Of a stretch of 64,000 bases of DNA, positions 3,143-58,885 are shown piece after piece; position 1 is the first letter of the stretch; each line of letters opens with the position of its first letter. The notes under the pieces are model-generated. The model made no database searches. It was given only the letters and a program-made list of their open reading frames with translations, and was not told where the DNA came from. A program made the position numbers and the translations under genes. The stretch comes from Cheilinus undulatus (Eukaryota > Chordata > Actinopteri > Labriformes > Labridae): the NCBI RefSeq assembly GCF_018320785.1, contig NC_054886.1:1429177-1493176 (forward strand). Reading direction: 5' to 3'.

Positions 3143-3204
3143 CTTCACTGTATCTGCGCTCTCTGTCACCAACACTTGTGCAGGATTACTGGAACAGCTT
3201 CTCA
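3143..3204 (-). CDS. Class B exon of VLIG-like unit 0
   Basis: The minus-strand acceptor TTACTTTCAG precedes 3204 and the donor GTAAAG follows 3143, as in the other class B exons. The exon is 62 nt, one codon longer than the usual 59 nt, so it keeps the phase 1 to phase 0 pattern and reads open as RSCSSNPAQVLVTESADTVK. It joins in frame to the class A exon at 3036. Unlike the B exons at 19.7 and 53.4 kb it has no ATG-GAG at its 3' end, so it looks internal. The matching large GTPase exon should lie left of the window. Confidence 0.6.
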
Positions 3205-10665: not shown

Positions 10666-13600
10666 TTATTTCACAGTGAATGACTTTTTCAGTCTCTCTT
10701 TTGCAAGTTCTGGTGTGATGTCTTTCCAAGTGTCTGGGATCTTTGCACGCTTTGCATTATATGCTTCAGCAAACTCTCTGTTGAACCTGTTCAGTACATA
10801 TTTCCAGTAGTCTGAAGCCTGAAGGCTGTTATCTGGAGCAATCCGCCAGTCAGGGAAGATCTTGGTGTACTCTTTGTAAGGGTGACGTTCACCATTTGTG
10901 GCATTACAGCGAAATGAGCGGTCACTACTCACTGATGTAGTGCATATACTAGTTGCAAGTCTTTGTGATGAGATTTTTCTGACTCTGCCCAGACCCTCTG
11001 GCCAGTGCATTGAAGTTTGGTGCTGCTTATGGTCAGTTCCTCCTGCCTCACAGGGAGCTGAGCAGAATGGACACTGTTTGCTACATCCAATGACTCTTTT
11101 GTAAAGCTCATTCTCAGGATTTACATGAAGGTTTGAGAGCTTGGTTTTGATGTTAGTCTTTTTAAACTGCTTTCTAAGAGCTTCTTCCATGTCCTTCACA
11201 GACACAGTGAGCCACTGAGCAAACTGTTCCTGTTTGACGTTGTTCAAGATCATGAAAGGACCGAGAGCATCCTCAGAAATGACCAGTTTTTCACCAAGTT
11301 CCTGACGGATATCCTGAATCAAGTTCTGCAGGTTGCTACCTTTCTTTGCTTGAGCTGTGTGTATCGCATCATTTATGCTCCTGATACTTGACCTGAGATG
11401 CTGGTCCTCAAACTCTAATATTTTATCAGACTGATTGGTCATGAGTTTTAACATTTCATCCCTGATCCATTCCTTCACATACTGCTCATATGAGCAGATG
11501 TAGCTGTGGTAGTCTTTAAAGTTGTTCTTTGAAAGCAGATCTAGTAAGACTGAGTACTGGAAGAACATTCGTGTGCTGAACTGGAACTTTGTCATCATTT
11601 CTCCAGTGATATCAGGACCCAATGAACGGTTGATAAAGTCTTCAACAGCCGGTTTCAGGCAGTGCTCTGTGAACTCTTCTGCCTTCTTCTGGCTCTGGTC
11701 TAGTTCATAGAACTCATCCTTGAAGTTAGCGCGGAACCTCTCTTTGTTTTGTTTGAGACAGCTGGAGGGATCATTCCTTTGAATGAAATCTCCATGCATT
11801 TTCTGAAACTTTCTGGCTGCATTTGCACAGATGTGCTGTTTCAGAGAAACCTCAAAGTCTATCTCTATCTTCACATCCTTGTGGTTTTTCAGTCCCTCAT
11901 CGATCAGGTGAAGGATCTCCTGGATGAAAGTGCTGTGGTAGTTGTTCTTTCTATCCACTTTTTCCTTCACAAAGTGTGCGCAATCCCTTATGATACCATC
12001 AGCTACTCGTCGTAGCACCATAATATGATCTTCAATGCTGAAAAATTTGCTGACTGAGTGCATCATTTTCTTTAAGCGTCCATCAGCTGTGTGTTTAAAA
12101 GGCATTTTTCCACAATCCTGCAGCTTTTTTTGACTCAGCAGTTCACACGCTTGACCCTTGCGTTTTAGATTTTCTCTCAGGTAGTGGGCTACATTTCCCA
12201 TGACATCCATGGTATCTTGTTTGTGAAGGACTTGTTCCTTCAACATTTTGTTCCACATCTTCTCAAATTCTTCATCCAGCTTTTCTTCTGCCATGTCCAC
12301 TTTTTTCTTTCTGCATTCTTCGATCAGTGCTAGTACTCTCTCTTCTAATTCTTTTGTGTGGTTCGCCTTGATTCTGTCAAGTTTTATCATTTCTTTTCTG
12401 GTTTCTGCTGCAACTGTGAGTTGGTTGTATACAGAGCTTTCCATTTCTCTACGAAGGCTCCTTGCACTGTTTGCAAAGTCCTCTCTGTATGCTTCAACAA
12501 GACTGACATGACACCCTGCTTGCTTGAAGTACTTCTTCAGATTTTCAAGAAGCTTTGTCTCCCATTCAGACAGCACTGTGCATGCTTCACTTTTCAAATT
12601 GGTGAGTAGTTGTCCAATGTCAGAAACCTCAGCTTTCACTCTGCCAAAGTTAGAAATCTTAGTTTCTGCTGTTTTTGTCCATGAGTACATGCCTGTTTTG
12701 AACTCCCATTCCCATTTATTGAATTCTGTGCAGAGCCTCATGTATGCATCAGCCACCAGGCTGTTTCTGAAGCTAAAGATGAAGTTCTCATGTTTAACAG
12801 AGTTCCACAGGCTTGTTATCCACTCTGTAAACTCCAGGAGATTGTTAGAAGAAGACTCACAATCTCCCAGGACTTTAAGAATATTTTTCTTGAGCTCATA
12901 AGTGACCTCACTGTACCCTGCATTAACTGGTGCCATTGGTGGGCTCCCATTCCAGAGTCCTGGGACGTAGCAGTTCCCAGTGTCTGGACTGTACTCCATC
13001 ACATCAGTGAAGCTCTTGTACTCCTCCTTGTTCTCCATTTTGGCAGCTGCCTGGGTCATCTCATTTAACTGTTCCAGGAGCAGTTCTCTTTCTCGTAAGT
13101 TCTTCTCAGGGGCTGATACATCTGCCACGTTCTGGTGAACAAACTGACATCTGGGTTTTTTGCCCACAGATTTCATTCTGAGAAAGGCGTGCACAACTAT
13201 CTGCAGGATGTCCTTCATTTCTGTGGAGTTCTCCATTGCAATGTTGATGATAGTGATGTCACTCAACCCCACAACAAGTGTTGCCAGCTCATTGTCATGC
13301 TCAAAGCTGTTGTCTAGTTTTGAAAGCTCTGGTGACTTTAAGCCCTCAGTGTCAATGATCACCAAGAAGTCACAGTTGAGTTCTTGTTTGATGTCTTCAT
13401 TGACTTTGATGAGCAACATGAAGGCACCTCTGGTGCATCGACCACTGCTGACTGCAAACTGTACTCCAAACATGGTGTTGAGGAGAGTAGACTTCCCTGT
13501 ACTCTGAACTCCAAGAACTGTGACCACCAGTATCTTGCTCTGAGGAGACACCAAGTCATTGAGCTGAGCCAGAACATCAGTTACCCATCTGAGAGGAATG

Positions 13601-15338
13601 TTTGAAGCATCACCATCTACAAGCTCCAGAGGAAATCCATCAAGCAACAACCCTGCACACAGTCTGGGCAGATGAGCTAACTGTTGACGTGATGGATTTG
13701 TTTGTTGGAGAGAAACTGAGGCTTCATAGATCTGACCCATTTCACGGAAGAAGTGTTCAATCCCAAGTGAGCTGTTGGAGAGTTGTTGGTCGATTTTTTT
13801 TATTTCCTCTTTGTTTTCAGGACTTTTGTTTTTGTTTTTGTAAGCCTCTCTGAGGCCAGACAGTTTCTCTCGAGACAGATTATCAAGGTTCATCCTCATC
13901 CATTTCAAGAAATAACATCTCTCAATACCTGGTGTTGATATTGCGTTGATGAAACATGTCATTGCATCAGACATATTGTAAGAGTTCTGTTGTGCCCGAA
14001 GTTCTTTTTGCTTCTTCTGAAGATCACTTTTGTACTCTTCAATGTTTTCAGACCCAACATTTCGAAGCCTGAACATTTCCTTCTCATTGCTGGTCAGTTC
14101 CTTCCATATTTCTCCCTGCAATGATAGCTGATCTTCTTTGTATTTCAGGATATCTTGAATTTGTGCAGTGATGGCATCTGCATTTTTCTTTGCTGTCTGA
14201 CACTCTTGACGGTCTTCATCAACCCAGATCCCCAGTTCATGGGCAATGTCAGCCATCTGTTCAATGTTCATCTTCTTCTCTGAGTTCTCCACCACACTGT
14301 TGACTGTTTTACGTAGATTTTCGATAAAGTCTGCTTCATTCATTTGCTTGGTCTTTAAAAGGATGTTGCTTTTTTTCAGTTTCAGCTTGTTTGCCACCTT
14401 CTTCAGAGTATCAGAGCATTTCTGGCTCTGAGGGTTTCCCACGAGGAAGATCTGTGCCTTGTGGTTTTGGTTTGTGAGCAGGTTGCACTCAGGGTCCAGA
14501 TTGTCAAAGAACACAAAAACTGCTGCAGATGTCTGACACAGAAAAGAAAACTGTGTCTCAAATGAAGCACTGTCTCCACGAAGGTTAGCTACAGCTACTG
14601 GCTCACTGAAAACATCCATGGTTTTGATCCCACAAGGTAGATACCAGGTAACTTCAGTCAGTCCATTAGATATTCTTCTTGGACAGGCACCATTTTCCAT
14701 GTCACTGTGGATGAATGTATCATGGTACTGCTGAGAATTACTCAGAAGTTTATTGAGGATCTCTGACTTAGACAAGGAGCACTCACCCAGTCTCACAAAG
14801 GAAACCATTGGAAGTTTAGAGACAACAATCCTGTCTTCAATAAAGCCCTTGGATTCTGAAAGTGATGAAGGTCTGTACTTTTTCACTATGTCTCTCATGG
14901 CCCAAAGCATTAGTGTGCACTGCTCTGTGTCACAATTAGGAAGCAGCAGAGGCACAGAAAACTGGCACATGGACATTTTGAGGGCCATTTCTTGTTGTAC
15001 AAAACCATCAGAACACAGAAAGAGAGCAGTGATTATGTCAAGAGGGTTCAGCTTGTCACCTGACTGCAGATCTCCAAAAAGATCATCAATATCTCTATCT
15101 GTTGCTTCTGATTCAGCATCACAGGCAGATTCACATTCAGATGTGAACTTTACATTTCTACCCGTCACATTAACCATCATCAGTTTCTTTAGAAAATACC
15201 ATGGAAGATCTGAATTACAGCTGGTGGGTTCATCAGTGATGGTCTTCTTATTGATCTGGAGTATTTCACTCAGGGATAGCTTCTCCTTGAAGTGATGCTC
15301 CAGTCCCAGATCCTTCAACAGGCTCTCCAGTTGTGTCT
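10666..15338 (-). CDS. VLIG/GVIN-type very large GTPase, large 3' coding exon (unit 1)
   Basis: The open frame is 1562 codons if read from the ATG at 15354. That ATG lies in a splice acceptor (TTTGATTCCACAG|AGACAC), so the exon probably starts at 15338 in phase 1, beginning TQLESLLKDLGLEH. Residue numbers follow the open frame. The N-terminal part carries family blocks (LNPLDIITALFLCSDGFVQQ near 105; YFLKWMRMNL near 480). A GTP-binding domain follows: G1 GVQSTGKST near 613, G2 region CTRGAF, G3 DTEGL near 667, and HQNV near 738 where other GTPases have a G4 motif. The C-terminal half is helical and charged, with a Cys/His cluster (CSKQCPFCSAPC, then H..H) near 1420 and the ending block SDYWKYVLNRFN. 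Single-exon coding of this region is typical of the family. Mammalian relatives are cytosolic/nuclear GTPases induced by interferon; the fish role is inferred. The frame is intact and ends in TAA at 10666-10668. Confidence 0.93.
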
Positions 15339-19500: not shown

Positions 19501-19588
19501 CTTTTGCATTCTTGCTGTCAGTAGATGCTGGAGGTGGACTTTCTTCTGCCTCCTCCCAATAACCTTCCATGTCTTCATCTCTGGTTTC
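19501..19588 (-). CDS. Class A coding exon of unit 1 VLIG-like gene
   Basis: Minus-strand acceptor TTTAATGAAG precedes 19588 and donor GTAAAG follows 19501. The 88 nt exon starts in phase 0 and ends in phase 1 with G, which joins AG of the large exon at 15338 to make the Glu before TQLESLL. The peptide is acidic (ETRDEDMEGYWEEAEESPPP, then ASTDSKNAK). Close paralogues are at 53.2, 50.8, 47.8 and 46.7 kb, which supports it as a real exon even though no cDNA was available. The intron to the large exon is about 4.2 kb and filled with transposons. Confidence 0.7.
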
Positions 19589-19705: not shown

Positions 19706-19764
19706 CTCCATTGTGTTGGAGCTCTCTGTCTCTCCTCAGTCAGGATTATTATGACAGCCTCTCT
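19706..19764 (-). CDS. Class B exon of unit 1, probable initiating exon
   Basis: Acceptor TTACTTTCAG before 19764 and donor GTAAAC after 19706; length 59 nt. In the frame used by internal B exons it has an in-frame TGA at 19736-19738, where the paralogues read TGT. Its 3' end is CTCCAACACAATGGAG: the ATG has A at -3 and G at +4 and is in frame with exon A (phase 0). The simplest reading is that this is the first coding exon, contributing only Met-Glu, with the rest 5' UTR. That gives a protein of roughly 1590 residues with the large exon. Confidence 0.55.
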
Positions 19765-25446: not shown

Positions 25447-25500
25447 TAGTTTTGTTATTGTTGATATTTCTGTAAAATAAAAAATATCTACGTAGTAATT

Positions 25501-32003: not shown

Positions 32004-35000
32004 TTATTTGACATTGAATGACTTTTTCAGACTCTCCTCAGCAAGTTCTGGTGTGATGTCTTTCCAAGTGTCTGGAATATCAGCCGGCTTTGCATCATAT
32101 GCTTCAGCAAACTCTCTGTTGAACCTGTTCAGTACATATTTCCAGTAGTCTGAAGCCTGAAGGCTGTTATCTGGAGCAATCCGCCAGTCAGGAAAAATGT
32201 CCCTGTACTCCTTGTAAGGTTGCCATTCACCATTTGTGGCTTCACAGCGGAATGAGTGGTCACTGCTCACCAATGAAGAGCAAATGTCAATGACAAGTTT
32301 TTGTGAGGAGAGCTTTCTGAATCTGCCCAGACCCTCTGGTCGGTGCATTGAAGTTTGGTGCTGCTTGTGCTCAGTTCCTCCTGCCTCACAGGGTGCTGAG
32401 CAAAGTGGACACTGTTTGCTACATCCAATGACTCTTTTGAATAGCTCACTGTCAGGCTTAACATGAAGATTTGAGAGCTTGGTTTTGATTTTAGTCTTTT
32501 TAAACTGCTTTCTAAGAGGTTTTTCCATGTCCTTCACAGACACAGTGAGCCACTGAGCAAACTGTTCCTGGTTGACGTTGTTCAGGATCATGAAAGGACC
32601 GAGAGCATCCTCAGAAATGACCAGTTTATCACCAAGTTCCTGACGGATATCCTGAATCATGTTCTGCAGGTTGCTACTTTCTTTTGCTTGAGCTGTGTGT
32701 ATCGCATCATTTATGCTCCTGATACTTGACCTGAGATGCTGGTCCTCAAACTCTGATATTTTTTTTGAGTCATCGGTCATGAGTTTTAACATTTTACCCC
32801 TGATCCATTCCTTCACATACTGCTCATATGAGCAGATGTAGCTGTGGTAGTCTTCAAAGTTGTCTTTTGAAAGCAGCTCCAGTAAGACTGAGTACTGGAA
32901 GAACATTCGTGTGCTGAATTGGAACTTTGTCATCATTTCTCCAGTGATATCAGGACCCAATGAACTGTTGATAAAGTCTACAACAGCCGGTTTTAGGCAG
33001 TGCTCTGTGAACTCCTCTGCCTTCTTCTGGCTCTGGTCTAGTTCTTTGAACTCATCCTTGAAGTTAGTTAGGAACCTCTCTTTGTTTTGGTTGAGACATC
33101 TGGAGGGATCATTCCTTTGAATGAAATCTTCATGCATTTTCTGAAACTCTCTGGCTGCATTTGCACAGATGTGCTGTTTCAGAGAAACCTCAAAGTCTAT
33201 CTCTATCTTCACATCCTTGTGGCTTTTCAGCTTCTTGTCAATCATGTGGAGGATCTCCTGGATGAAAGTTTCATGGTAGTTGTTCTTTGTTTTCATTTTG
33301 TCTTTCACATACCGTTCACATTCCAGTATGACACAGTCAGCTATTTTTTGTAGCTTCATTTCAGGCTGTTTAGTGCCTAACATTTTACTGACTGTGTGCC
33401 ACACCTGTTTGATAGACCCTTCAGATGATGTTTTTTTGGGCATCCAACCACAATACTGCACCTTTTTTTGACTCAATATTTCATTCACAAGACTCCCCTT
33501 GTGTGTTAGATTTTCTCTCAGGTAGGAGGTTACACTCCCCATGACATCCATGGTCTCTTGTTTGTAAAGGACTTGCTCCTTCAACATTTTATTCCACATC
33601 GTGTCAAATTCTTCATCCAGCTTTTCTTCTGTCATGTCCACTTTTTTCTTTCTGCATTCTTCAATCAATGCTCTCACTCTCTGTTTCAACTCTTTTGTGT
33701 GGTTTGCTTTGATTCTGTCAAGTTCTATCATTCCCTTTCTGGTTTCTGCTGCAACTGTGAGTTGGTTATGTACAGATCTTTCCATTTTTCGACAAAGACT
33801 CTTGGCACTGTTAGCAAAGTCCTCTCTGTATGCTTCAACAAGACTGACATGACACCCTGTTTGCTCAAAGTACTTTTCCAGGTTTTCAAGAAGCTTTGTC
33901 TCCCATTTAGACAGCATTATGCATGCTTCACTTTTCAAATTGTTAAATAGTTGTGCAATGTTTGACTCCTTAGATTTCACTCTGCCAAAGTTAGAAATCT
34001 TAGTCTCTGCTTTTTTTGTCAATGAAAACATGTCTTCTTGGAATTTCCATTCCCATTTATTGAATTCTGTGCAGAGCCTCATGTATGCATCAGCCACCAG
34101 GCTGTTTCTGAAACTGAAGATGAAGTTCTCGTGTTTGACAGAGTTCCACAGGCTTGTTATCCACTCTGTGAACTCCAGGAGATTGTTGGAAGAAGACTCA
34201 CAATCTCCCAGGACTTTAAGAATATTTTTCTTGAGCTCATAAGTGACCTCACTGTACCCTGCATTGACTGGTGCCATTGGTGGGCTCCCATTCCAGAGTC
34301 CTGGGACGTAGCAGTTCCCAGTGTCTGGACTGTACTCCATCACATCAGTGAAGCTCCTGTACTCCTGCTTGTTCTCCATTTTGGCAGCTGCCTGGGTCAT
34401 CTCATTTAACTGTTCCAGGAGCAGTTCTCTTTCTCGCAAGTTCTTCTCAGGGGCTGATACATCTGCCACGTTCTGGTGAACAAACTGACATCTGGGTTTT
34501 TTGCCCACAGATTTCATTCTGAGAAAGGCGTGCACAACTATCTGCAGGATGTCCTTCATTTCTGTGGAGTTCTCCATTGCAATGTTGATGATAGTGATGT
34601 CACTCAACCCCACAACAAGTGTTGCCAGCTCATTGTCATGCTCATAGCTGTTGTCTAGCTTTGCCAGCTCCAATGACTTTAAGCCCTCAGTGTCAATGAT
34701 CACCAAGAAGTCACAGTTGAGTTCTTGTTTGATGTCTTCATTGACTTTGATGAGCAACATGAAGGCACCTCTGGTGCATCGACCACTGCTGACTGCAAAC
34801 TGTACTCCAAACATGGTGTTGAGGAGAGTAGACTTCCCTGTACTCTGAACTCCAAGAACTGTGACCACCAGTATTTTGCTTTGAGGAGACACCAAGTCAT
34901 TGAGCTGAGTCAGAACATCAGTTACCCATCTGAGAGGAATGTTTGAAGCATCACCATCTACAAGCTCAAGAGGAAATCCATCAAGCAACAACTCTGCACA

Positions 35001-36682
35001 CAGTCTGGGCAGATTAGCTAACTGTTGACTCGATTTTTTTGTTTGTCAGAGAGAAACTGAGGCTTCATAGATCTGACCCATTTCACGGAAGAAGTGTTCA
35101 ATCCCAAGTGAGCTGTTGGAGAGCTGTTTGTCAATTTCTTTGATTTTCTCTTTGTTTTCAAGGTTTTTGTCTTTGTTTCTGTAAGCCTCTCTGAGGCCAG
35201 ATAGTTTCTCTCGAGACAGATTATCGAGGTTCATCCTCATCCATTTCAGGAAATAACATCTCTCAATACCTGGTGTTGATATTGCATTGATGAAACATGT
35301 CATTGCATCAGACATGTCAGAAGAGTTCTGTTGTGCCCGAAGTTTGTTTTGCTTCTTCTGAAGATCACTTTTGTACTCTTCAATGTTTTTTGACCCAACT
35401 TTTCGAAGCCGAAACACTTCTTTCTCTATGCAAGTCAATTCTTTCCATATTCCTCCCTGCAATGGTAGCTGATCTTCTTTGTATTTCAGGATATCTTGAA
35501 TTTGTGCAGTGATGGCATCTGCATTTTTCTTTGCTGTCTGACACTCTTGACAGTCTTCATCAACACAGATCCCCAGTTCATGGGCAATGTCAGCCATCTG
35601 TTCAATGCTCATCTTTTTCTCTGAGTTCCCCACCACACTGTTGACTGTTTTACGTAGGTTTTTGATAAAGTCTGCATCATTCATTTGCTTAGTCTTCAAA
35701 AGGATGTTGCTTTGTGTCAGTTTCAGCTTGTTTGCTACCTTCTTCAGAGCATCCATACTAAATTGCTGGCTCTGATGGTTTCCCACCAGGAAGATCTGTG
35801 CCTTGTGGTTTTGGTTTGTGAGCAGGTTGCACTCAGGGTCCAGATTGTCAAAGAACACAAAAACTGCTGCAGATGTCAGACACAGAAAAGAAAACTGTGT
35901 CTCAAAAGACGCAATATCTCCACGAAGGTTAGCTACAGCTACTGGCTCACTGAAAACATCCATGTTTTTGTTTCCACAAGGTAGATACCAGGTAATTTCA
36001 GTCAGTCCATTAGATATTCGCCTTTGACAAGCACCATTTTCCATGTTTCGGTGAACGAATGTATCATGGTACTGCTGAGAATTACTCAGAAGCTCATTGA
36101 GGATCTCTGACTTTGACAAGGAGCACTCACCCAGTCTCACAAAGGAAACCATTGGAAGTTTAGAGACAACAATCCTGTCTTCAATAAAGCCCTTGGATTC
36201 TGAAAGTGATGAAGGTCTGTACTTTTTCACTATGTCTCTCATGGCCCAAAGCATTAGTGTGCACTGCTCTGTGTCACAATTAGGAAGCAGCAGAGGCACA
36301 GAAAATTGACACATGGACATTTTGAGGGCCATTTCTTGTTGTACGAAACCATCAGAACACAGAAAGAGAGCAGTGATTATGTCAAGAGGGTTCAGCTTGT
36401 CACCTGACTGCAGAGCACCAAGAAGAACTTCAAAATCAAAATCTGTTCTTTCTGATTCAGCATCACAGGCAGATTCACATCCAGATGTAAACTCTACATT
36501 TCTAGCTCTCACATTAACCATCATCAGTTTCTTTAGAAAATACCATGGAAGATCTGAATTACGACTGGTGGGTTCATCAGTGATGGTCTTCTTATCGATC
36601 TGGAGTATTTTGCTCAGGGAGAGCTTCTCCTTGAAGTGATGCTCCAGTCCCAGATCCTCCAACAGGCTCTCCAGTTGTGTCT
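32004..36682 (-). pseudogene. VLIG/GVIN-type very large GTPase, large exon (unit 2), one in-frame stop
   Basis: A paralogue of the unit 1 exon, same strand, collinear, with the same acceptor structure (CATTCCACAG|AGACAC) and end (DYWKYVLNRFN...SFNVK, stop at 32004-32006). The open frames 36698-35046 and 34991-32004 are in one frame: the only break is TGA at 35046-35048, where unit 1 has CAA (Gln), directly after YEASVSL. The following segment continues in frame (Q T K K S S Q Q L) into an intact GTPase domain with GVQSTGKST, CTRGAF, DTEGL and HQNV. No ATG occurs between the stop and the P-loop, so re-initiation would lose G1. The gene is either recently dead, polymorphic for a null allele, or affected by an assembly error. 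Upstream exons look well preserved. Confidence 0.88.
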
Positions 36683-46670: not shown

Positions 46671-46761
46671 TCTGTTTGCAGTCATTCTTGTTGCTAGTAC
46701 AAGCCAGAGATAGACTTTCTTCTGACTCCTCACAGGAAAGGTATAAATCATCACTGATTTC
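46671..46761 (-). CDS. Class A exon, unit 2, last before the large exon
   Basis: Acceptor TTCATTGAAG before 46761 and donor GTAAGT after 46671; 91 nt, phase 0 to phase 1, so it can splice directly to the large exon at 36682 across a 10 kb intron. The peptide begins EISDDLYLSCEESEESLSLA and ends with KNDCKQ. It is the most divergent A exon of unit 2. No class C exon follows it. Confidence 0.65.
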
Positions 46762-46854
46762 CTTCAATGAATGACAACAGTAAATCTTCTAATCTCTTAC
46801 ACATTGTAGGTGATTTACTTTTATTTAACAATGTTGCACAAAAAAGCTGTTTAC

Positions 46855-46913
46855 CTCTTTAGTGTTTGTGCTCTCTGTCCTCCCACAGTCAGGATTTCTA
46901 TGACATCCTCTCA
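46855..46913 (-). CDS. Class B exon, unit 2, third internal copy
   Basis: Acceptor TCACTTTCAG-type before 46913 and donor GTAAAC after 46855; 59 nt, open in the cassette frame as RGCHRNPDCGRTESTNTKE. It ends AAAGAG instead of ATGGAG, so it cannot initiate translation, which fits an internal position. It joins exon A at 46761 in phase 0 over a 93 bp intron. Confidence 0.65.
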
Positions 46914-47426
46914 CTGAAAGTAAAGAGACAAGACATTTTATCCCATTGTACTTCACATTGTTCATTAGTTTAAGAGAATACACTGCCATCATTTTGGGTT
47001 TGGAAATAAGACTTGAATGACATGATGGTATCACAACAGCCAGTCAGCCAGTCTGAAGGAGCAGCTGAATGTTATCATATGCAATTTCAAAGACAGAATT
47101 TATATCTAAAAGCATTGCAGTTCACGCAATTTAAAAAGTTTTGTCTACGTGTATTTACATTGAAAAAGAACACGTGGTCATGAGAATGTTAAAGTATTGT
47201 GTTTTCTGTTACAGATTTCTCTGTCTTTACAGAGTTCAAAAGAACAACAATAATGAGCAAATTAATGCTAACTTTGAATTACATCTTCTTTTCTCAGGGA
47301 AAATTTGACTAGTTGTTTAGCTGCAGCTACTCTGCTGTAGTGAAGACAACACATTTTTTTTTAAAAATGTTTCCTAAGTGATTACAATTTATTGAAGGAC
47401 TTTGTGGACTGATTTGTTTTACCCAC

Positions 47427-47606
47427 ATGTCTGTCCAGATGTTACAGCAGGCACAATAATGTCACTCCTGGGTTCTGCAGAATCCTGGATAAAGTGTTGC
47501 ACCCCTGGCATTAATGTGGTTGTGTCCATTACTTCATGCCCAATCTCCCCCTCTGTGCAAGTAGTCATGGTGTAGTTCTCTGCTTTACCAGCAGGAGTGG
47601 CAGGCT
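47427..47606 (-). CDS. Class C exon, unit 2, second copy (180 nt)
   Basis: Acceptor TTTAAACAG before 47606 and donor ACAT|GTGGGT after 47427. Length 180 nt, a multiple of three, entering and leaving in phase 1 with no stop: PATPAGKAENYTMTTCTEGE, then IGHEVMDTTTLMPGVQHF and so on to SGQT. Paralogue at 50371-50607. The peptide is Thr/Glu-rich with no recognised domain. Confidence 0.65.
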
Positions 47607-47699
47607 CTGTTTAAAGTTTATAATAATAAAATATTATTACTAATATGTCTCACGGACTGTTCTTGATTTAATTTTTCTTGTGTTGAAAATTTTTCTCAC

Positions 47700-47811
47700 C
47701 ATTTGCATTCCTCTGCCAACAGCCATCCTTGCTGTCAGTACATGCTGGATGTGGACTTTTTTCTGTCTTCTTCTGACAGTTTCTTTCAACGTCTGAATCC
47801 TCACTGGTTTC
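47700..47811 (-). CDS. Class A exon, unit 2, third copy
   Basis: Acceptor TTTAATGAAG before 47811 and donor GTGAGA after 47700; 112 nt, phase 0 to 1. The peptide starts ETSEDSDVERNCQKKTEKSP and ends with DGCWQRNAN. It belongs with the B exon at 49188, but a 1.29 kb Tc1-like element now lies in the intervening intron. Confidence 0.65.
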
Positions 47812-47876
47812 CTTCATTAAATGACAATAACAAGCCTTACACAGGGTAAGAGTAAGTGATTTTTTTTTTAAATATA

Positions 47877-49164
47877 CATGAGGACAAAATTATGAGCTCC
47901 CCCTATGAAAATTTTGTTGATTTGAACATATTTCTCAAGTGCTGTTAAACAAAGGAAATCATTTTTAACACAGTTTTTTCAAACATCCTAGTTTTGTTTT
48001 TGATGCTAAAACTATTTCACTTAGCACACAGAAATGAAAATATTCCACCAAAACTCCCAGGGTCTAAATTATTAGCCTTCCTGATGCTAATAGTCAATAG
48101 TGTCTCCTGCTTGCTGGATAGTAGCCTGCAGTGGTTTGTTGTAGTTTTAGTCTCTGACATGTCTCCTGAGGAATCCCTGCTCATTCTTCTGGCATGGACC
48201 TTCATCTTCAGTTCCCCCCACAGATTTTTAAATGGGATTTAAGTCAGGGCATTGTGCAGGCCACTCAGTAACACTCACTTTGGTTTTCTGAATGTAGTTC
48301 TTCACCAGGAGCGAAGTATGTTTTGGGTTGTCGCGTTGCAAGAAAAAAGCCACTACCCACATCCAGTTTTGTTGATGACTGCTTCAGGTATTCTTTCAAA
48401 ATATCATATCCTTTTTTTGTCAAGGTTCCTGGGCAAGCTGGACAAGGTTTCCAGTTCCAGATGCACTGAAGCATCCCCACAGCATAATCCTCCCACTACC
48501 ATGTTTCACTATAGGGACGGTGTTCTTTGCGTGATACGCCTCTCCCTTCATTCTCCAAACATCAGCAACATCTCTGTGGCCAAAGAGGTCTAGTTTAGGT
48601 TCATCTGACCAAAGAACATGCTTTCAGTGTTCATAATGCTTCTCCAGGTTGTCATCAGCATCCTTCAGTATGGCTTGAAGGTGTCTCTTCTGCAGAGGTT
48701 GAGTTTTTCTTGGTCTGCAACCTCTCAGTCCATTCCTGTGCAGGGCTCTAGTGAGGGTCTTTGTTGAGACTACAGTTCCTGACTTGGCTAAGTCCATTAG
48801 TAGTGTCTTGGCAGTTGTTGTCGTGTCTTCAGACACATCTGTCATATCTTTATTCTGATTTTACAAGCTTTGAGCATTACAAAGTTAATGCACATCATTG
48901 ACCAACGGTGGTTTTTGCAAAGGCTCGACTAAAAGGTCATTTCTAAACGAGGCTTATAATTTTTAACTGGGTAGTTTTTGGTTTAAGTGAGATAGTTTTG
49001 TTTCTGTTCACAAAGTAAAATTTATGTAAGCATCCAAAATAAAACAAGCACATTTGGAAAAGCTGTGCTAAAACCCTCCACTCTGTTTAACAACACTTTG
49101 GAAATACTTAAGAAAAATCGAAAATTTCGTTGGGGGGAGGGTGTAATAATTTTGTCCACCTGTG
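47877..49164 (-). mobile_element. Tc1-like transposon, 1288 bp, in a GTPase intron
   Basis: Inverted ends CATGAGGACAAAATTATGAGC and CACAGGTGGACAAAATTATTAC, with TA duplicated at 47875-47876 and 49165-49166. The minus strand carries a decayed transposase: an N-terminal helix-turn-helix part at 48624-48845 (TRALHRNGLRGCRPRKTQ), and WPAQCPDLNPI near 48230-48265 before the catalytic Glu region. Stops and frameshifts make it inactive. It separates class B exon 49188 from its class A partner at 47811. Confidence 0.85.
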
Positions 49165-49187
49165 TATCTTTTTACAAAGATGTTTAC

Positions 49188-49246
49188 CTCCATTGTGATG
49201 GAGCTCTCTGTCATTCCACACTCAGGAATTAATTGACAGTCTCCAA
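49188..49246 (-). CDS. Class B exon, unit 2, second internal copy
   Basis: Acceptor before 49246 and donor GTAAAC after 49188; 59 nt, open in the cassette frame: GDCQLIPECGMTESSITME. The sequence and its upstream flank (to about 49620) are almost identical to 50937-51380, a recent duplication. It ends ATGGAG like the initiating exons but is open throughout, so it can be internal. Confidence 0.65.
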
Positions 49247-49717
49247 CTGAAAGTAATGACACAGGATTGTTAACCCATGCTACTTCACATTTTTCAAACA
49301 GTTTAGGGGAACATGCTGCCTGCTTGGTACTATTTCCCCATTAACAGGAAAAATATCTATGTTATTTTGTCTTAAGTTTCCATGTCAGGTTTGAAAATAA
49401 GACTTGAATGGCAGGATGGTATTAAACAACAGTCCACTCTCAACCTTAAAGTATCCAAAGCCTGACCTCTGAACACTCATAAACTGTGAAGGTTTCATGC
49501 ATCAGCTGACTGTGAACTTTGGGACTTAGCTTTTCCCGCCTTGTGAAAACAGAGAGAGGATACACTTAAACTAAATACATGATCACACCCAAAAAATACA
49601 AAGCCAATCTCATCTTCCTTAATATTAAAGTTATCATGTGAAAGTTGTCACTTGATAATAGCTCAGAAACAAACAGTCGAAACACTGTGATTCATCAGAC
49701 TGAAACAAGCGCTAGAG

Positions 49718-50205
49718 CAGTGATTCCCAACCTGTGGGCCGTGGCCCCTTGGTGGGCCGCAAAGGTATTGCAAGTGGGCCGCCATTTTTTTTCATGGGGG
49801 GGGGGTAAATTATATTTAAAAAAAAAATACAGAGAAAGGATATTAAAAATGTTCAAATATTCTTTTCATTACTTTGATTTGTTTTTCCTTCAAGTATTAG
49901 ACATGTGACAAGCAAATGAGAGATAGGAACTTTTGTTGTTATCTAGAGGTTATTGTGTGGACAGCTCCTTGAAAACTGTAATACTGAAGGTGTTGCAACA
50001 TGTTACAAATGCTGTGTTAGCGACTGTGGAGCTTCCAATACGTTTCTCCTGTATTCAGTTCAGTCCTTTATGTTCAATCTTCAATTTAAAAAAGTGCTCT
50101 GAGAACACATTATATGGCCTCCATATTTATGGGGTTGGAGGTGGGCCGCGAAAACTTTTGAGACTTAAAAGTGGGCCCTGAGTTGGAAAAGGTTGGGAAC
50201 CAGTA
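49718..50205. mobile_element. hAT-type non-autonomous element, 488 bp
   Basis: Left end CAGTGATTCCCAACCTGTGGGCCG; right end inverts to a similar GGTTCCCAACC. Flanking 8 bp repeats CGCTAGAG (49710-49717) and CTCTAGAG (50206-50213) match at 7 of 8 positions. The interior has a GGGGGGGGG run and GTGGGCCGC words near both ends, with no transposase. It lies between two duplicated GTPase exon cassettes. Confidence 0.75.
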
Positions 50206-50370
50206 CTCTAGAGCTTTTGTGTCATTTTCCCATCACAAGTTTCTAACATGAAGGTTTATGTTTGAATGTTTTCATGTTGTCCTCACTGATCATAAGTACT
50301 CTTTTAGAAATATTTCCAAAGTCAAAACAAATTATTGAAAGGACTCTGTGGACTGATTTGTTTTACTCAC

Positions 50371-50607
50371 TTGTCTGTTCAGGTGTTACAGCAGACTCAG
50401 TAATGTCTTTCTTGGGTTCTACAGAATCCTGGGTGAGGTGTTGCACTTCTGGTGTTGATGTGGTTGTGTCCGTTGTTTCCTGCCCAACTTTCTCTTCTGT
50501 GCAAGTAATTATGGTGTAGTTCTCTGCTTTATCAACAGGAGTCTCTACATGAGAAACTTGCTCAACACTGGCACAACAGACTGACGTCTTTACATGAGGG
50601 GAGGACT
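50371..50607 (-). CDS. Class C exon, unit 2, first copy (237 nt)
   Basis: Acceptor TTATAACAG before 50607 and donor GACAA|GTGAGT after 50371. The 237 nt are a multiple of three in phase 1-1 and open throughout, including CCASVEQVSHVETPVDKAEN and TTDTTTSTPEVQHL. It is 57 nt longer at its 5' side than the copy at 47606. Its junction codons fit A exons upstream and B exons downstream. Confidence 0.65.
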
Positions 50608-50721
50608 CTGTTATAATGAAAGTTTACAGTAAAAAATATATACTTTTAAAACAGAATCTTACAGACTGTTCTTAATGTCCCTTGTGTTGAAAACTTTGTT
50701 GAAAAAAAACGTGAACTTCAC

Positions 50722-50830
50722 CATTTGCATCCCTCTGCTGACAGTCATTCTTGCTGTTAGGACATGCTGGCAGGGGACTTTCTTCTGCCTCCTCACAGTT
50801 TCCTTTAACGTCTGAATCATCTCCGGTGTC
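50722..50830 (-). CDS. Class A exon, unit 2, second copy
   Basis: Acceptor TTTAATGAAG before 50830 and donor GTGAAG after 50722; 109 nt, phase 0 to 1. The peptide begins DTGDDSDVKGNCEEAEESPL and ends with NDCQQRDAN. The intron to the B exon at 50937 is 106 bp. Confidence 0.65.
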
Positions 50831-50936
50831 CTTCATTAAATAACAATAACATACAATGTTATGAGATCAATCTTCTCATGAAACCTTACACATTGTAGCT
50901 GCATTGTATTAAATATATGTACACAAAGATGTTTAC

Positions 50937-50995
50937 CTCCATTGTGATGGAGCTCTCTGTCATCCCACACACAGGAAATATTTGACAGTCTCCAA
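50937..50995 (-). CDS. Class B exon, unit 2, first internal copy
   Basis: Acceptor TTACTTTCAG before 50995 and donor GTAAAC after 50937; 59 nt, open in the cassette frame as GDCQIFPVCGMTESSITME. Very close to the exon at 49188-49246. The other two frames have different properties (one stops), supporting this frame. Confidence 0.65.
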
Positions 50996-50999
50996 CTGA

Positions 51000-51759
51000 A
51001 AGTAATGAGATAAGATTGTTAACCCATGCTACTTCACATTTTTCAAACAGTTGAAGGGAACATGCTGCCTGCTTGGTACTATTTCCCCATTAACAGTAAA
51101 AAAATCTATGTTATTTTGTCTTAAGTTTCCATGTCAGGTTTGAAAATAAGACTTGAATGGCAGGATGGTATTAAACAACAGTCCACTCTCAACCTTAAAG
51201 TATCCAAAGCCTGACCTCTGAACACTCATAAACTGTGAAGGTTTCATGCATCAGCTGACTGTGAACTTTGGGACTTAGCTTTTCCCACCTTGTAAAAACA
51301 GAGAGAGGATACACTTAAACTAAATACATGATCACACCCAAAAAATGCAAAGCCAGTCTCATCTTCCTTAATATCAAAGTATCTCAACCATTTTATATTT
51401 CTGTGAATACTCATATTTTTTGTTTGACTTTAAAAAGTTACACAACAGTTTGGCATCTTTAAATCTTAAACACTTCATTCCCTAAGGCAGAGATATCAAT
51501 TCCAGTTGTATGAGGTCCAGGTTTAATAGATTTCCTCAAGCAAAGGTCTGGAATATCTTTTTATCCTACCTGTAATATTACTAGGTGCAGTTCATAAACA
51601 TTAAAACAAAAGCATTTTTAGGAGCTGAAAGTAATAATAAAACAGTAGTAATTCGCAATACTTATGAAATACAATAAATTATTTTCTTGTTGCAAGTAGT
51701 AAGATTTTTGGTAGACTATTTTCTACTATAATTGATCATTTTGAACGCAGCTTTATATA
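51000..51759 (-). other. Intron of unit 2, duplicated flank
   Basis: 51000-51380 is nearly identical to 49250-49625. The remainder to 51759 is AT-rich and featureless. Confidence 0.55.
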
Positions 51760-53099
51760 AACTTAGCACAAAAAGTAAGGAAATTTTTGTTTGGTAAATT
51801 ATTTCTTGGTTGTACCAATGCTTCTTGACAATAAATCTTATACCGTTGGAAAGCCTGTTTATTACCCTTTTAAATGGTGCCACATTTGTAAGGAACGTGC
51901 ATTTGTGGGATGAGCAGCAGAGCTGAGTATGTGGGTTGCACCCATGAAAAATGTACCAGATCTTCTCTGCCATTGCCAAACACTTTATTCTGCCATTGAC
52001 TCTTGTTTGGTGTTTGGTGGACTGGATGATAGAAGTTTGAAGAAACAATAAATATTGGCAATTTAACTATTTATTCATTTAACAAACAGGAGCCTCAGTA
52101 GTGTGTGGAAGAACCATACACAGCCACAACAGCCTGGCTCCTCCTCCTCATGCTGGTCACCAGCCTGGTCGCACACTGCTGTAGGATGGCATCCCATTCT
52201 TCAACCAGCATTTGTCGCAAGTCAGCCAACATGGTTGTGTTGGTCACTCTGGCACAAACAGCACACCCAAGCTGATCCCACAAGTGTTCAATGGGGTTAA
52301 GGTCAGGACTGCTGGCCGGCCATTCCATCCTCTCAAATCCCAAATTCTGGAGGTAGTCTCTGACAAACCCTGCTCTGTGGGGGCGAGTGTTCAGTCAGGA
52401 TAGAGTTCAGTCACAGACTGTGGAGATATGGGATTGCCACTGGTTGCAGAATCTTCTCTCGATATCTCTCTGCATCGAGATTTCCTCCAATGATGACAAG
52501 CCTTGCTTTTCCAGTGAGGGAGATGCCGCCCCACACCATCACTCTGCCAATACCAAAAAATGTTACTCTATTGGTGCAGCAATCAACATAGCTTTCTCTG
52601 CACTTCTCCACACTTTGACCCTACGATCCAACTGCCGTAGACAGAATCTGGACTCACTGCTGAACATAACTACCTCCACACGTTCAGGTTCCAATGCACA
52701 CGTTGCTGACACCTGCGCAAACGGACCTGACCATGAAGGGCAGTCATGGCAGGCCTATGAGACCAGAGATTTGCTGCGTGCAGTCTGTCTGCCCATGTCT
52801 GCCCATGCTTACAGGTGCTGCCAACTGGGGGTACCAGAAGCTCAAAACAAGAGTCAATAGCAACAGCAAAATAAGCTGTTCGGCATTGGCAGAGAAGATC
52901 TGGCCAATATTTAATGGGCGCAACCCACATACTCAGCTCTGCTGCTCATCCCCCAAATGCCTGTTCCTTACAAATGCAGCATCATTTAAAAGGGTAATAA
53001 ACAGGCTTTCCAACGGTATAATATTTATTGTCAGGAAGCATTGGTACAACACAGAAATAATGTACCAAACAAAAATTTCCTTATTTTTTCTGCTAAGTT
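51760..53099 (-). mobile_element. Tc1/mariner-like transposon with long inverted repeats, 1340 bp
   Basis: Ends AACTTAGCACAAAAAGTAAGG and inverted AACTTAGCAGAAAAAATAAGG, TA at 51758-51759 and 53100-53101, and about 260 bp of terminal inverted repeat (51760-52020 against 52845-53099). The minus strand at 52095-52343 encodes the transposase C-terminus (SSPDLNPIEHLWDQLG with the catalytic Glu), and further decayed fragments run to about 52900. Lies in the intron between the first A exon and the next B exon of unit 2. A lone arm of the same family is at 54475-54632. Confidence 0.85.
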
Positions 53100-53169
53100 T
53101 AGATTATTCTAACAAGAGCTGCTTAAAACTGTGTTATTTATTGCCATTGTGTTAAAACTTTACCTTTAC

Positions 53170-53251
53170 CAGTTTTGCTGTCAGTAGATGCTGGAGGTGG
53201 ACTTTCTTCTGCATCCTCCCAATAATCTTCCATGTCTTCATCTCTGGTTTC
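53170..53251 (-). CDS. Class A exon, unit 2, first copy
   Basis: Acceptor TTTAATGAAG before 53251 and donor GTAAAG after 53170; 82 nt, phase 0 to 1. The peptide is ETRDEDMEDYWEDAEESPPP then ASTDSKT, closest to the unit 1 exon at 19501-19588. It would follow Met-Glu encoded by the B exon at 53369. Confidence 0.68.
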
Positions 53252-53368
53252 CTTCATTAAATAACAATAACATACCACATAATGAGATCAGCCTTCTCAT
53301 GAAACCATACACATTGCAGGTGTGTTAGGAGTTCATATTGGGCATTGTTGTACAAAGAAGTTGTTTAC

Positions 53369-53416
53369 CTCCATTGTGTTGGAGCTCTCTGTCAGGATTA
53401 TTATGACAGCCTCTCT
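53369..53416 (-). CDS. Class B exon, unit 2, probable initiating exon
   Basis: Acceptor TTACTTTCAG before 53416 and donor GTAAAC after 53369. It is only 48 nt: relative to the unit 1 B exon 11 nt are missing, which would shift the cassette frame. The 3' end CTCCAACACAATGGAG is intact, with a good ATG context and the right phase for exon A. As in unit 1, lesions fall only upstream of this ATG, so it is read as the start codon exon contributing Met-Glu. Confidence 0.55.
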
Positions 53417-55158
53417 CTGAAAGTAATGAGACAAGATTTTTATCCCATGTTACTTCATATTTTCCAGTTGATGGTACCAAGCTGTCTGCTTTGCATATTT
53501 TAGATTTGAAGGTGTCAGGCTAACAGTGTGTGAGCCTGTGAGTGTGGACTTAACATCATAAATGGCCAGCACTGAAAGCAATGTTCCCCACATGGTCCTT
53601 TAATTTGTGCTAAGTTTTGTTTAATCATCCATGCATATCTATTTAAAATTTATTGTTGTATGCACTTTTAAGAACTTTATGTCCAGTTTTATTTTTGAAG
53701 TGTTCCTGTCATGATACTATTTGTGTATTGGATATGCATTGTAGTGTAAGTGGAAAATATGCTGTTGTTCATGGCTACTCAGTCGCTGTAGACGATCTGA
53801 CAAATGAATATAAGATTACATATCAACAAAGTGATTTTCATTGACATGGCTGATGAAGCAGCCAACCCAACAAAGCCAGGTACCTATATAACTCAAATAT
53901 GCGATCATAATATAATATGATCATTTGGATTGGTTGTACTGTTTTATTTCAACACCAGCTAGGATTTAACACTGTTACAATTCATCCATCAAAGTCCCTT
54001 GAGTGCTCACCTATTTCTTACAGTGTTTTTTCCACAGTGTATCTCTGTGAATGTGATTCACTGATGCACAGCTAACCTGCTTGTCTTTGTATTTTCTTTT
54101 TCAATGTTACACTACATTCACACCTGTCCTGCAGGTTAGGGGGTAGGCCTGCACTGTGCGCGCTCCGCGGGGCTGTGTATCTGTGCAGTGGTGTATTCCA
54201 TGATTGTGCCTCTATGTTACAGCCGGCTAAGACTGCACTATTTTTTTGGTCGTTCGTGATGGCACCATGTCAGACTATGCAACAAAAAAAACTTGGCCTG
54301 ACTGGCTGATGGACTACAAGCGAGATCCTGACAGCTCACCATATGCTGACGTCACAACTGTCTCCAAGACTGAGTTAGAGTTCATAGGTTGTGTTGGGGG
54401 TGTCGATTTATATGTGCACACATATTAGGCTATTTGGCATACCTAGATATTTACCAGTTAAGCATCCCACACATGCATGCTCCTTACAAATGTGGCTCCA
54501 TTAAAAGGGAAATAATCAGGCTTCCTAATGGTATAGGGTATATTGCTGAGAAGCATAGTTAAAACAAAGAGATAATCTACTAAAGAGAAAATGTTTTTTT
54601 TCTTCTAGTTTTGCACTAAGTTTAGTAGTTCACTTGTTTCTATTAAATGATAATATATTTATTTATAATTCCTTTGATTAATGTCCCTGATATGTGCTGA
54701 ATGAATGAATACCAGGAAGCAGAAATGAGACCTTTGTAGGAAGGAAAAGGACAGGAACTCTGCATTTATGGATGTAAACCTGCTCCTGACCGGCTTAGCT
54801 CCACTGGTTATATCACTATGCTAACTGTCTCAGAGCTTAGTTATCTTTATGGGGCAGGTTTTACTCTCCTTTTATCTCTTGTTTTAGTTTCCTCCCTTTC
54901 TGAAACCGAGTTTCTCTCATTTCAAGTTTGACTAAAAATGTTTAACTAAAAATGCTTTCTGATGCCTCTGCTCACTGACTTTCAACATTTGAGAATGCAT
55001 GAAAACTTCCCTTCATGTTAAACAAACCCAACGTCACGCCGAGCTGATATTTCACACAAATTTAGTAGCCAAAGTGTTTCCAACAGCGTTATTTAACCAA
55101 GTCAGTATCAGCATTAAACTCCTTTAGCTATGATCTCTGCAGACGATTAATCATCTAC
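53417..55158. other. 5' intron of unit 2, with duplicated flank and a lone Tc1 arm
   Basis: 53417-54130 aligns with 19765-20560. A solo terminal repeat of the long-TIR Tc1 family lies at 54475-54632 (CCTTACAAATGTGGC to TTGCACTAAGTTTAG). The 60-codon frame at 54246-54428 has no recognisable family feature. Confidence 0.5.
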
Positions 55159-55215
55159 CTTGTTCACTCCGTGCGTTCAGCTGTACCACCTCCTCTCTCT
55201 GCAGCTTTCCTCAGT
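55159..55215 (-). promoter_or_regulatory. Possible non-coding first exon of unit 2
   Basis: The minus strand reads GGAGTGAACAAG|GTAGAT at 55159, a donor after a purine-rich stretch with no ATG. An IRF-type motif lies just upstream at 55226-55235. The next exon on this strand would be the ATG-bearing B exon at 53416. The 5' limit is a guess. Confidence 0.35.
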
Positions 55216-55225
55216 CCTGTGCCAA

Positions 55226-55235
55226 GAAACGAAAC
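55226..55235 (+). promoter_or_regulatory. IRF-type element (GAAACGAAAC)
   Basis: AAGAAACGAAACC contains the AANNGAAA core bound by interferon regulatory factors. The two GAAA words are one base apart, not the two of a canonical ISRE. Its position directly upstream of the presumed first exon of an interferon-inducible gene family supports a regulatory role, but this is inference. Confidence 0.4.
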
Positions 55236-57346
55236 CAACCTCCGGCCTGAGGAGTCAGAGTGAGGTGGGTAGAGACATCTGGAGCTGCGTTCACTTGTAA
55301 TCTGACATTAGCGCTTCACTCGCGGAAAAAGTCCGATGAGCCGTAACTTTCCATTGCAATCATATTCCTTGAAAGTTTGATGAAGATCCGACTTTCCGTT
55401 CTCGAGTTTTCTTGTACACATACAAACACAGAAACAAACAAAGATACGGAACCCTTTACATAACCCCCTGCCGGTTTCACCGGCGTGGGAAAAAAAACTT
55501 AAAATGTCGTGTGCACATTTCTTTCCACGTTTCGCTCACTTATCAGGCAGTATATGTCTTTGTTGTTGTTTTGCTGGCTAGTCTTGCTGCCTTGGATGTT
55601 TTGCTTCCCTCTTTACCTGAAACGAGGACAGGACAGGTAGGCGGGGATGGGATTACCAACATTGGCGAGGCCGCGCAGCCGAGAATGTGTTATCAGAAAA
55701 TAAATACTCTAAGCTCATATTTAGAAGTAACAGCCATATTTTGAATAGACATGTGGCACTACTTTTTCTGACGTATGAATACACTTTGAGGAAAGTTTAA
55801 ATGTGTCTCAGCGGAGTGATCTAAGGGGCACTTGAACAGTAAAGCAACGTTGAAACTTTATCTCGGGGTTAAACTCATTTATTAGTAAGTGGAGGAGCAC
55901 AGCATTATATACCTGCTCATCAGCTCGTTGATTTAGCGTTAGATTTGAATATGAACACGTTAGTTTATTTAAAATTTGACTTTAATTTTTCACTACCTGA
56001 CATCAAAAAGGTCCACTCAACCCACCAACGAGAACAAAACTCACCTTTATGGACGAGGTGTGCAGATTGTAAATCCTTCTTATTCAGGAGTTTTCAGAGC
56101 AGCGTGGATCTGTCCTCCTGTGTCTGAACTATAAACGTTAAACCGTCAAATGCCACCACCCTGGATTCACACTCCTTTTAATCTGAGGGTAAAATCTTCA
56201 CTTTCGTTTTTCAGGAATAGATTCTTACTCATGATTTAATAAAAGAGAGTCAGTTTAACAGTAAATGGGATCAGATTACATTGTTCTTTCAACACACATA
56301 AAAACAAATCAACAGGACCAGATGAAGCAGAACAAAATGCTGTACACACAGAAATTACATTTTCTCTGGCATATTGCATGAGTCTTTACATTTCAGCTGT
56401 TGGAGATAGTTTGCCTTCATCAGCTGTAATAAAGCAATCTCACTTCAAATAATCCCATTATTATGCCAAAGTGATTGGAATAAATATTACACACGTGTTA
56501 AAAATGATAATCTGATTACATTGGGGAATATACTTTGAGTAAAAGTGTTTTTTTCACTTCATAGTTGTTGCCTGTATTGCCCAGCCCAGCCAAACACCTT
56601 CCTGAGCTGAGGTAAGTCATCACTGGCTGCAGTCTACTGTTTCTTATTTCAGTTGTCTGTTTCTCTTCATGTCCATTTATTATTTCCCAACTGCGTTCAG
56701 GTAACCTCAGTAAATTAGACGACTGTTTCCTATATGATATGATATGTTCAAATGCCCCATAAAAGATAGGAAAATTTTGTTTTGACAGGAAACAACAATA
56801 AATGCAGCTTTGAATATTGTTTGTATTTAAGGGATATAGAATAGATGTTACAGACTGAATAATGACATTTTAGCTCAAACATAACTCAGTTCTTACCACT
56901 TCTATTGAAAATGTTTGTCCTCATTTTGTCTTTACCCAAATCTATATAAAAGTATCATTAGTGGTATCAATAATGACCTGGATCAATGAGGAGTCTTGAT
57001 AACAGCATCAGTTTAAGTAAAAATGAACGATCCTCTTCCCTCATCATAATGAGACCCCACCATGCACGTTTTGGTCAAAAAATGCTGCAGTCTCTTATGT
57101 TTGTTAAATACAATCAAACTCTTCTTTCAATCTTCATTTCCCATTAAAAGAAATGGGACTTTTGAGGACATGTTTTGTGGTCTTTAGCAACCATACCTCT
57201 GTTTGTTTGCTCATGATGGTGAGCTTGGATTTCTGAGAGTTTTTTTAGTGTTTTTTTCCTAGGCTGGGCATATGATATAATTTTCAGTTGAACTGTTCCT
57301 GATTATTTAATGTAATTTGACTCAAAGCAGCTGCCGTTAGCTCACT
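55236..57346. other. Far 5' flank of unit 2, no gene recognised
   Basis: 56030-56240 aligns with 27840-28070 near unit 1. The remainder is AT-rich, with scattered short frames lacking any family feature. Confidence 0.45.
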
Positions 57347-57906: not shown

Positions 57907-58234
57907 TGCCTCCTTGGAAATCTTTTTGAGTGTCTTATTTGTCAAACACCTGCAAAAACTCAGACATCAGTCCATCTTATTTCTAGTCAGAAATACCTCT
58001 GAACACTTACTTAAGCCCTCATTGACCTTACAAATCTAGAGAAACATCTCATTTTCAGATTTTTTAAATAATTCCAGACTTCTCAGTGGCTTTTAAATAC
58101 ATACAAGGATTTAATTTTTTTTTTTTACAAAAAGTTAGTTAAAAAATATAAGATTTGAGATTTTGCATGTTGTGCTTTGGTAGACACCTTGTTTATTTCT
58201 GGCAGATTTATTAAAAAGAAAACTAAAATTAATG
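57907..58234. other. AT-rich flank, nothing recognised
   Basis: Contains T-rich and A-rich runs near 58120; no gene or identifiable repeat. Confidence 0.4.
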
Positions 58235-58885
58235 AGAGAACACTTTAACTGTTCAACCTTGGCATGCTTTTTTTAAAATTGATTTTTATAGTCTTGGTCT
58301 CGGTCTTGACTCGGTCTCAGTTCCCAAAAGTCTTAGTCTTGTCTTGATCTTAGTGCACTCTGGTCTCGGACAAGTCTTGGTCTGGGATAGTGTGGTCCTG
58401 AGTGCAACGCTAGTGTTGAGTATATAACGTGTTTTCACCAACAGGTGGCAGAATTACCTCATACACAGTCTCATAAGAAGCTGTTCTGCTTATGTGCCTG
58501 TTTGTGTTTTAGATTTTGATTTGACCTTGACCTGATGTGTATTTGTCCTTTAGGCCAGTTGTATTCATAGATTTAGAAACCACAGAAGCTGTAAAGTATG
58601 AAAGTGTCCTATTATTATATTCTAGATTTGATTTCTCTTTCTGCCTTATAGACCACACACAGATATAGAGAACATACAGACCTGTGTTGCCTTCTATGCC
58701 TGATGTGTGCTCATGCCTTCATTAAAGCAGAAAGGAAACTAATGCCTACTGCCTACCTCCTGATAGACACCCCACAGAGATAGCATATTAGAATACATCC
58801 AGTCATTTATCAGGTCCTTAGCCAGAGTAACTTCTTTGTCTCTACACTGGATAAATTGTGATCTCTGTTTGCATTTCAGTTAAGA
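58235..58885. repeat. Duplicated block C, copy 2, with CTTGGT minisatellite
   Basis: Aligns with 28780-29500 over its whole length, including the (GTCTTG/GTCTCG)n tract at 58290-58390 and the downstream TATATAACGTGTTTTCACCA. Non-coding. Confidence 0.65.

Follow-up and report, generated by a model that had tools for sequence, protein, structure and literature searches.

Frame-neutral exon units in tandem at the 5' end of a VLIG/URGCP-like gene of Cheilinus undulatus, and their variation among its paralogues

Why should a gene that carries its GTPase in a single giant exon place ten mini-exons, of only three kinds, ahead of it? The question is posed by gene 1 (Vd), one of the minus-strand members of a VLIG/URGCP-like family in a 64,000-nucleotide (nt) stretch of the genome of the fish Cheilinus undulatus (the window, C22:1429177-1493176; C22 is contig NC_054886.1, and coordinates given without a contig are those of the window). 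The window has two further members: gene 2 (Vc) and a third gene, Vb, if the B exon at 3204-3143 is part of it and not an orphan. We think it likely that the array of mini-exons belongs to a tandem VLIG/URGCP-like gene whose N-terminus is made of B-A units, some extended by a C exon, which are gained, lost and homogenised between paralogues and are constitutively included, gene 1 itself being a copy in decay.

Anatomy of the array

The 5' array of gene 1 occupies 46671-53416 on the minus strand and comprises four B, four A and two C exons. Read in the direction of the gene, it opens with B1 (53369..53416, 48 nt), a start exon made of 5' untranslated region (5'UTR) and ATG GAG, and A1 (53170..53251, 82 nt). 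There follow two sets of three: B2 (50937..50995), A2 (50722..50830, 109 nt) and C1 (50371..50607, 237 nt, donor GTGAGT); then B3 (49188..49246), A3 (47700..47811, 112 nt) and C2 (47427..47606, 180 nt, donor GTGGGT). The array closes with two exons of terminal type, B4 (46855..46913), which is without ATG, and A4 (46671..46761, 91 nt). All four A exons run from phase 0 to phase 1 and both C exons from 1 to 1; B2, B3 and B4 are 59 nt long and run from 1 to 0, B2 and B3 being open. GT-AG splice sites and frame are kept in all ten, the donors match the consensus at 5-7 of 8 positions, and splice-site quality is broadly alike throughout. An earlier note on this DNA, made from its letters alone, had placed the ten exons where we find them, and the phases that it assigned to B, A and C are all borne out; its length of 59 nt for B is right for the three internal copies and wrong for B1, whose 48 nt fit a start exon.

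That note had also predicted one open frame through all three kinds of exon into an acceptor at 36682. Joined translation gives just this: a single frame of 876 codons that ends at a TGA within the giant exon (32004..36682, minus strand). The cassettes contribute an acidic N-terminal stretch of 332 amino acids (aa), with 72 aspartates and glutamates vs 25 lysines and arginines, and rich in serine, threonine, proline and cysteine. Gene 2, with one B-A unit, joins in frame in the same way and places 32 aa ahead of the same giant-exon start. The B-A units and C are thus what the note took them for, symmetric 1-1 modules: homologous exons whose insertion keeps the frame, and whose number varies between paralogues.

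No Pfam domain above threshold was found in the 332 aa and the start of the giant exon (one match with an expectation value (E) of 0.12, far below the cut-off, was taken as chance). For the opening 110 residues of the giant exon no related sequence turned up in the PDB (E up to 1), and AlphaFold2, run on the one sequence, gave a model too poor to use (mean predicted local distance difference test score (pLDDT) 39.7). Additional decayed cassettes in the 10-kb intron preceding the giant exon were considered and rejected: the matches are weak, the best being to a C on the opposite strand (E 3e-4, rising to 0.007 on refinement) and another at E 0.24. The introns of the array also hold two transposon-like elements with inverted ends, at 47872-49167 (between B3 and A3) and 51755-53104; the inverted ends measure about 185 bp in the first (69% identity) and 255 bp in the second (88%).

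Units of the array among the paralogues

Is the array an accident of gene 1? Cassettes with the same acceptor and phases recur upstream of other paralogues, so it is more than chance. The family was located by a protein search of the genome (1.17 Gb, 46 contigs), which gave 17 rows, read as 15 loci: 12 on C22, two on C1 and one on C2, the C22 loci other than gene 2 being 89-95% identical to it. Giant exons of tandem paralogues lie at C22:1399815-1404467 (L036), 1496991-1501688 (L024) and 1559373-1564064 (L030), and in the window at 10666..15338 (gene 2) and 32004..36682 (gene 1), both on the minus strand and about 90% identical to each other. In Pfam scans both match URGCP (PF25496) and URGCP_GTPase (PF25683). 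Gene 2 does so within one frame of 1564 aa (E 1.3e-121 and 5.5e-199), its giant exon being open over those 1564 codons; in gene 1 a stop splits the frame.

(A technical note: profiles of A, B and C were built from the window and then applied to the other paralogues. Upstream sequence was covered for nine of the 12 C22 loci: Va to Vg, in a 264-kb stretch, plus Vh and Vi. For Vh (giant exon up to ~3820642) the covered part is 3821501-3829500, and for Vi (giant exon from ~C22:171590, plus strand) 155001-165000, so that the cassette counts of these two are lower bounds.)

The profile search reads Vd as BA-BAC-BAC-BA; Vf, with several of its exons damaged, as BAC-BAC-BA; Ve as BA-BA; Vi as BA(C)-BA; Vg and Vh as BAC each; and Vc (gene 2) as BA, the only B-A unit found there, with a start exon at 19706..19764 that has a TGA in the internal-B frame and an 88-nt A exon at 19501..19588 (both minus strand). 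Va and Vb each have one BA near the giant exon and one distant pair. The nine paralogues thus range from 1 to 4 B-A units and from 0 to 2 C exons. The distant pairs are of a divergent subclass with a 62-nt B (at 3143..3204, minus strand, and C22:1379091-1379152), and sit 17-28 kb farther upstream than the nearer B of Vb and of Va, respectively; they may be orphan starts, or far first exons of Vb and Va.

Placed together in one tree, the 18 B-A units cluster by position in the array and not by gene. With five units left unlabelled, a single change fits each class: the start units Vb2, Vc1, Vd1, Vf1 and Vi1 (support 79/84, the least supported), the middle units Vd2, Vd3, Vf2 and Vf3 (98/96, the best supported) and the terminal units Va2, Vd4, Ve2 and Vi2 (86/98). 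Because units cluster by start, middle and terminal position, an array of several unlike units seems to predate the divergence of several paralogues. Within the middle class Vd2 pairs with Vd3 (95/94) and Vf2 with Vf3 (100/99) as sister units; to judge by these pairings, the middle unit either doubled independently in Vd and Vf or is homogenised within each. The order of gains and losses cannot be read from the giant exons, whose tree of seven genes is star-like and without a starred branch, a shape that may reflect either homogenisation through gene conversion or a burst of duplication.

How recent is the doubling in gene 1? The earlier note had inferred a recent duplication from the near-identity of 49188-49625 and 50937-51380. 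The near-identity is real (96.5%), with limits that we correct to 49174..49631 around B3 and 50923..51380 around B2 (minus strand), and the inference fits these 458 bp only, not the cassette as a whole. The A and C exons lie outside them and are 79-82% alike: A2 and A3 agree at 89 of 109 positions, C1 and C2 at 143 of 180. Sixteen differences in 458 positions on the B side vs 57 in 289 in the A and C exons (Fisher p 6e-13) make a single duplication of one age insufficient; the contrast would be explained by a tract converted later, or by a second duplication that was only partial.

From these observations the following course of events can be proposed. An ancestral array whose start, middle and terminal units were already distinct, each a composite of B (1 to 0) and A (0 to 1) with an optional C (1 to 1), would have existed probably before several of the paralogue splits. 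Later, Vd and Vf would each have doubled the middle unit on their own, and gene 2 would have been cut back to one B-A, if its short array is indeed a loss and not the absence of a gain. Homogenisation would have been partial. Unequal crossing-over and gene conversion are the most likely mechanisms of these gains, losses and homogenisations. Duplication, loss and conversion within and between the tandem genes would be tolerated because the units are 1-1 symmetric. The array would then be the 5' coding part of Vd, one member of the tandem cluster: the first B would serve as the start exon (5'UTR and ATG GAG), internal B copies would be translated through, and the product would be a fast-changing, acidic and probably disordered arm, of 32 aa in gene 2 to 332 aa in gene 1, preceding the conserved URGCP and GTPase domains.

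Coding arm, debris or isoforms

Are the cassettes coding at all? Consider the A exons. Their lengths leave a remainder of 1 on division by three in 16 of 18 copies, over six length classes, the two exceptions being Vf1, which belongs to a broken gene, and Vb1, which differs from its sibling Va1 at the 3' end. Seventeen of the 18 are free of stops. In simulations along the unit tree, 11.9 copies with stops are expected under neutrality and none of 4000 runs gave one or fewer. The depletion persists when Vf is removed (0 of 15 observed, 10.1 expected, P 0.0003), when actual exon lengths are used (11.0 expected; one of 2000 runs with one or fewer) and when branch lengths are halved (7.7 expected; 30 of 2000). 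B exons differ by position: first copies, which ought to be untranslated up to their ATG, are disrupted in the internal frame in six of eight cases vs none of seven for internal copies (Fisher p 0.007), a contrast that drops three hard-to-place B of the 18 (Va1, Va2 and Vb1).

Several points weigh against this reading and should be set out together. Pairwise ratios of nonsynonymous to synonymous change (dN/dS) are 0.76 for A, 0.73 for B and 1.02 for C, and tests under codon models leave omega = 1 unrejected for A (p 0.50), for B (0.24) and for C (0.34), power being low in such short exons; the opening 100 codons of the giant exon give a like result (p 0.24), and over the whole giant exon omega = 1 is rejected (p 2e-24). 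Identity in the exons is not clearly above that in the short B-A intron. The stop simulations start from a root built as the consensus of the open copies, assume rates to be uniform and allow no indels. When the three ambiguous B are restored by position, the contrast falls to 5/9 vs 1/9 (p 0.13); the stop common to the start-type B of Vb2, Vc1, Vf1 and Vi1 may be one inherited event; and the openness of internal B is by itself within chance (0/7, 2.6 expected, P 0.135). Only four of the seven C exons found are sound, since two of Vf hold stops as called and that of Vi has no acceptor AG. The start, middle and terminal labels of the unit tree were picked after pairwise identities had been seen. 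Finally, the splicing of the array exons is predicted from their anatomy. The earlier note had staked its proposal on the B, A and C frames not evolving neutrally, and the outcome divides: the amino acids do evolve as if neutral, and A has far fewer stops than neutrality predicts. We read the combination as selection for an open frame whose residues are little constrained, as would be expected of a disordered arm.

Could the array of gene 1 be the debris of a pseudogene, its open frames simply left over? As an account of gene 1 this is about an even proposition; it concerns gene 1 only and is compatible with the explanation offered for the family. The in-frame TGA of the giant exon (35048-35046) lies upstream of the sequence GVQSTGKST, which we take to be the GTP-binding motif. 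Because the stop precedes that motif, gene 1 as assembled is probably a decaying copy, truncated ahead of it: the array-bearing gene does not have an unbroken GTPase frame, and the earlier note's "immune GTPase" is not supported for this copy. Neutrality of the cassettes, as noted, is not rejected by codon tests, and the neighbouring broken gene Vf carries stops in its cassettes. Against mere debris stand the frame and GT-AG sites retained by all ten exons, and a giant exon otherwise open (1569 codons, one TGA) in which the stop falls in what is apparently the last exon and might give a truncated protein. Nor are two-unit arrays confined to broken genes, for Ve and Vi have them with open giant exons: giant exons are broken in Vf and, in its downstream part, in Va, whereas the searched part is free of stops in Vb, Vc, Ve, Vg, Vh and Vi. 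Thus cassettes and two-unit arrays occur in intact-looking genes.

If every B-A unit and C of gene 1 is frame-neutral, and A or C could each join the giant exon, is the array a device for making N-terminal isoforms by alternative inclusion of its modules? The anatomy is compatible with this, and we regard it as rather unlikely. Frame-neutrality follows from how the units duplicate, and regulated skipping is not needed to account for it; nor do the ten exons differ much in the quality of their splice sites (donors 5-7 of 8). The precedent that might be cited from trout, a GVIN1 exon reported absent in a disease-susceptible line, codes for 670 of 1,836 aa (PMC8321248) and is not a comparable cassette. 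On the explanation that we prefer, sound units are most likely spliced constitutively, and the length of the arm would vary between genes, not isoforms.

A bolder proposal, which we hold to be unlikely, is that the exon-pair array acts as a length dial for the acidic arm, with quick gain, loss and conversion between paralogues and individuals, infection-selective inclusion, and internal B used as insert or start. Very unlikely, too, are repeated B exons that serve as alternative first exons, each with its own promoter and start codon: ATG GAG does end 12 of 18 B copies, and the 458 bp that B2 and B3 have in common include upstream sequence, but the acceptor tttcag, unneeded by a first exon, is kept in 18 of 18, internal B is open in phase from its acceptor where start-type B often is not, and a 5' region common to Vd and Ve, though unmatched at five genes, lies farther upstream.

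That region (55140..55265, minus strand, limits approximate) is probably a non-coding 5' exon with the promoter region. Ahead of the next paralogue, Ve, it recurs with 88% conservation (C22:1513628-1514035); ahead of the remaining five genes in the 264-kb stretch no match was found. On its plus strand it holds the element AAGAAACGAAACC, conserved between Vd and Ve, which we presume to be like an interferon regulatory factor (IRF) element; the array gene may be under interferon control. A separate repeat, 87% identical between 28781-29476 and 58215-58884, lies 5' of genes 2 and 1, and parts of it also match sequence upstream of Ve and close to Vg; it may be a shared promoter region or a mobile element. 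Two frames matching the transposase family DDE_3 are found at 18338-18994 and 25465-26136, 374 bp of these regions being 97.6% alike.

Precedents and meaning

The earlier note knew of no description of such an arrangement. For VLIG genes we have found none either: among the open-access papers searched, few of which were opened, none was seen to describe small exons repeated at the N-terminus, and it is by these that the present genes differ from the VLIG/GVIN1/URGCP accounts found, while sharing with that family the giant exon with URGCP and URGCP_GTPase. In other genes, comparable designs are published. The NLR-C proteins of zebrafish have N-terminal repeats of ~30 aa, one exon each and variable in number, ahead of a large nucleoside triphosphatase (NTPase) exon; the repeats are shuffled between groups, and exon shuffling and gene conversion have been proposed (PMC4852459, PMC11192531). 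As described there, NLR-C (NLR-B30.2) is likewise a large, fish-expanded family of nucleotide-binding immune proteins with variable small exons before one NTPase exon. The VLIG-like genes have the URGCP GTPase in place of the NACHT/FISNA domain of NLR-C (a Pfam scan of the giant exons matched the URGCP and GTPase families and no NACHT). Moreover, the NLR-C repeat is a single exon; here it is a B-A pair in which neither exon is neutral alone, with an optional C and a B that also serves as start exon.

Teleost piccolo b offers a second likeness, an exon amplified to differing numbers in teleosts: one zinc-finger exon has been amplified 8 to 16 times, with independent amplifications, which are ascribed to unequal crossover (PMC3484663). 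That is a single zinc-finger exon in a synaptic gene, unlike an acidic stretch with no Pfam domain above threshold. Tandem duplication is shared, too, with exons that are spliced in mutually exclusive fashion (PMC9013439, PMC9741552), from which the array differs in that its unit is two or three exons and that it shows no sign of a mutually exclusive choice. What is unusual is the repeat unit itself: an exon pair, neither member of which is neutral alone, and whose first exon doubles as a start exon.

One practical consequence is that automatic gene models at such loci may disagree on exon number. For the biology of the family the comparison suggests more: another immune NTPase family expanded in fish would have arrived at an architecture like that of NLR-C, in which small frame-neutral exons in variable number stand ahead of one giant NTPase exon, so that convergent selection for adjustable N-terminal arms becomes testable.

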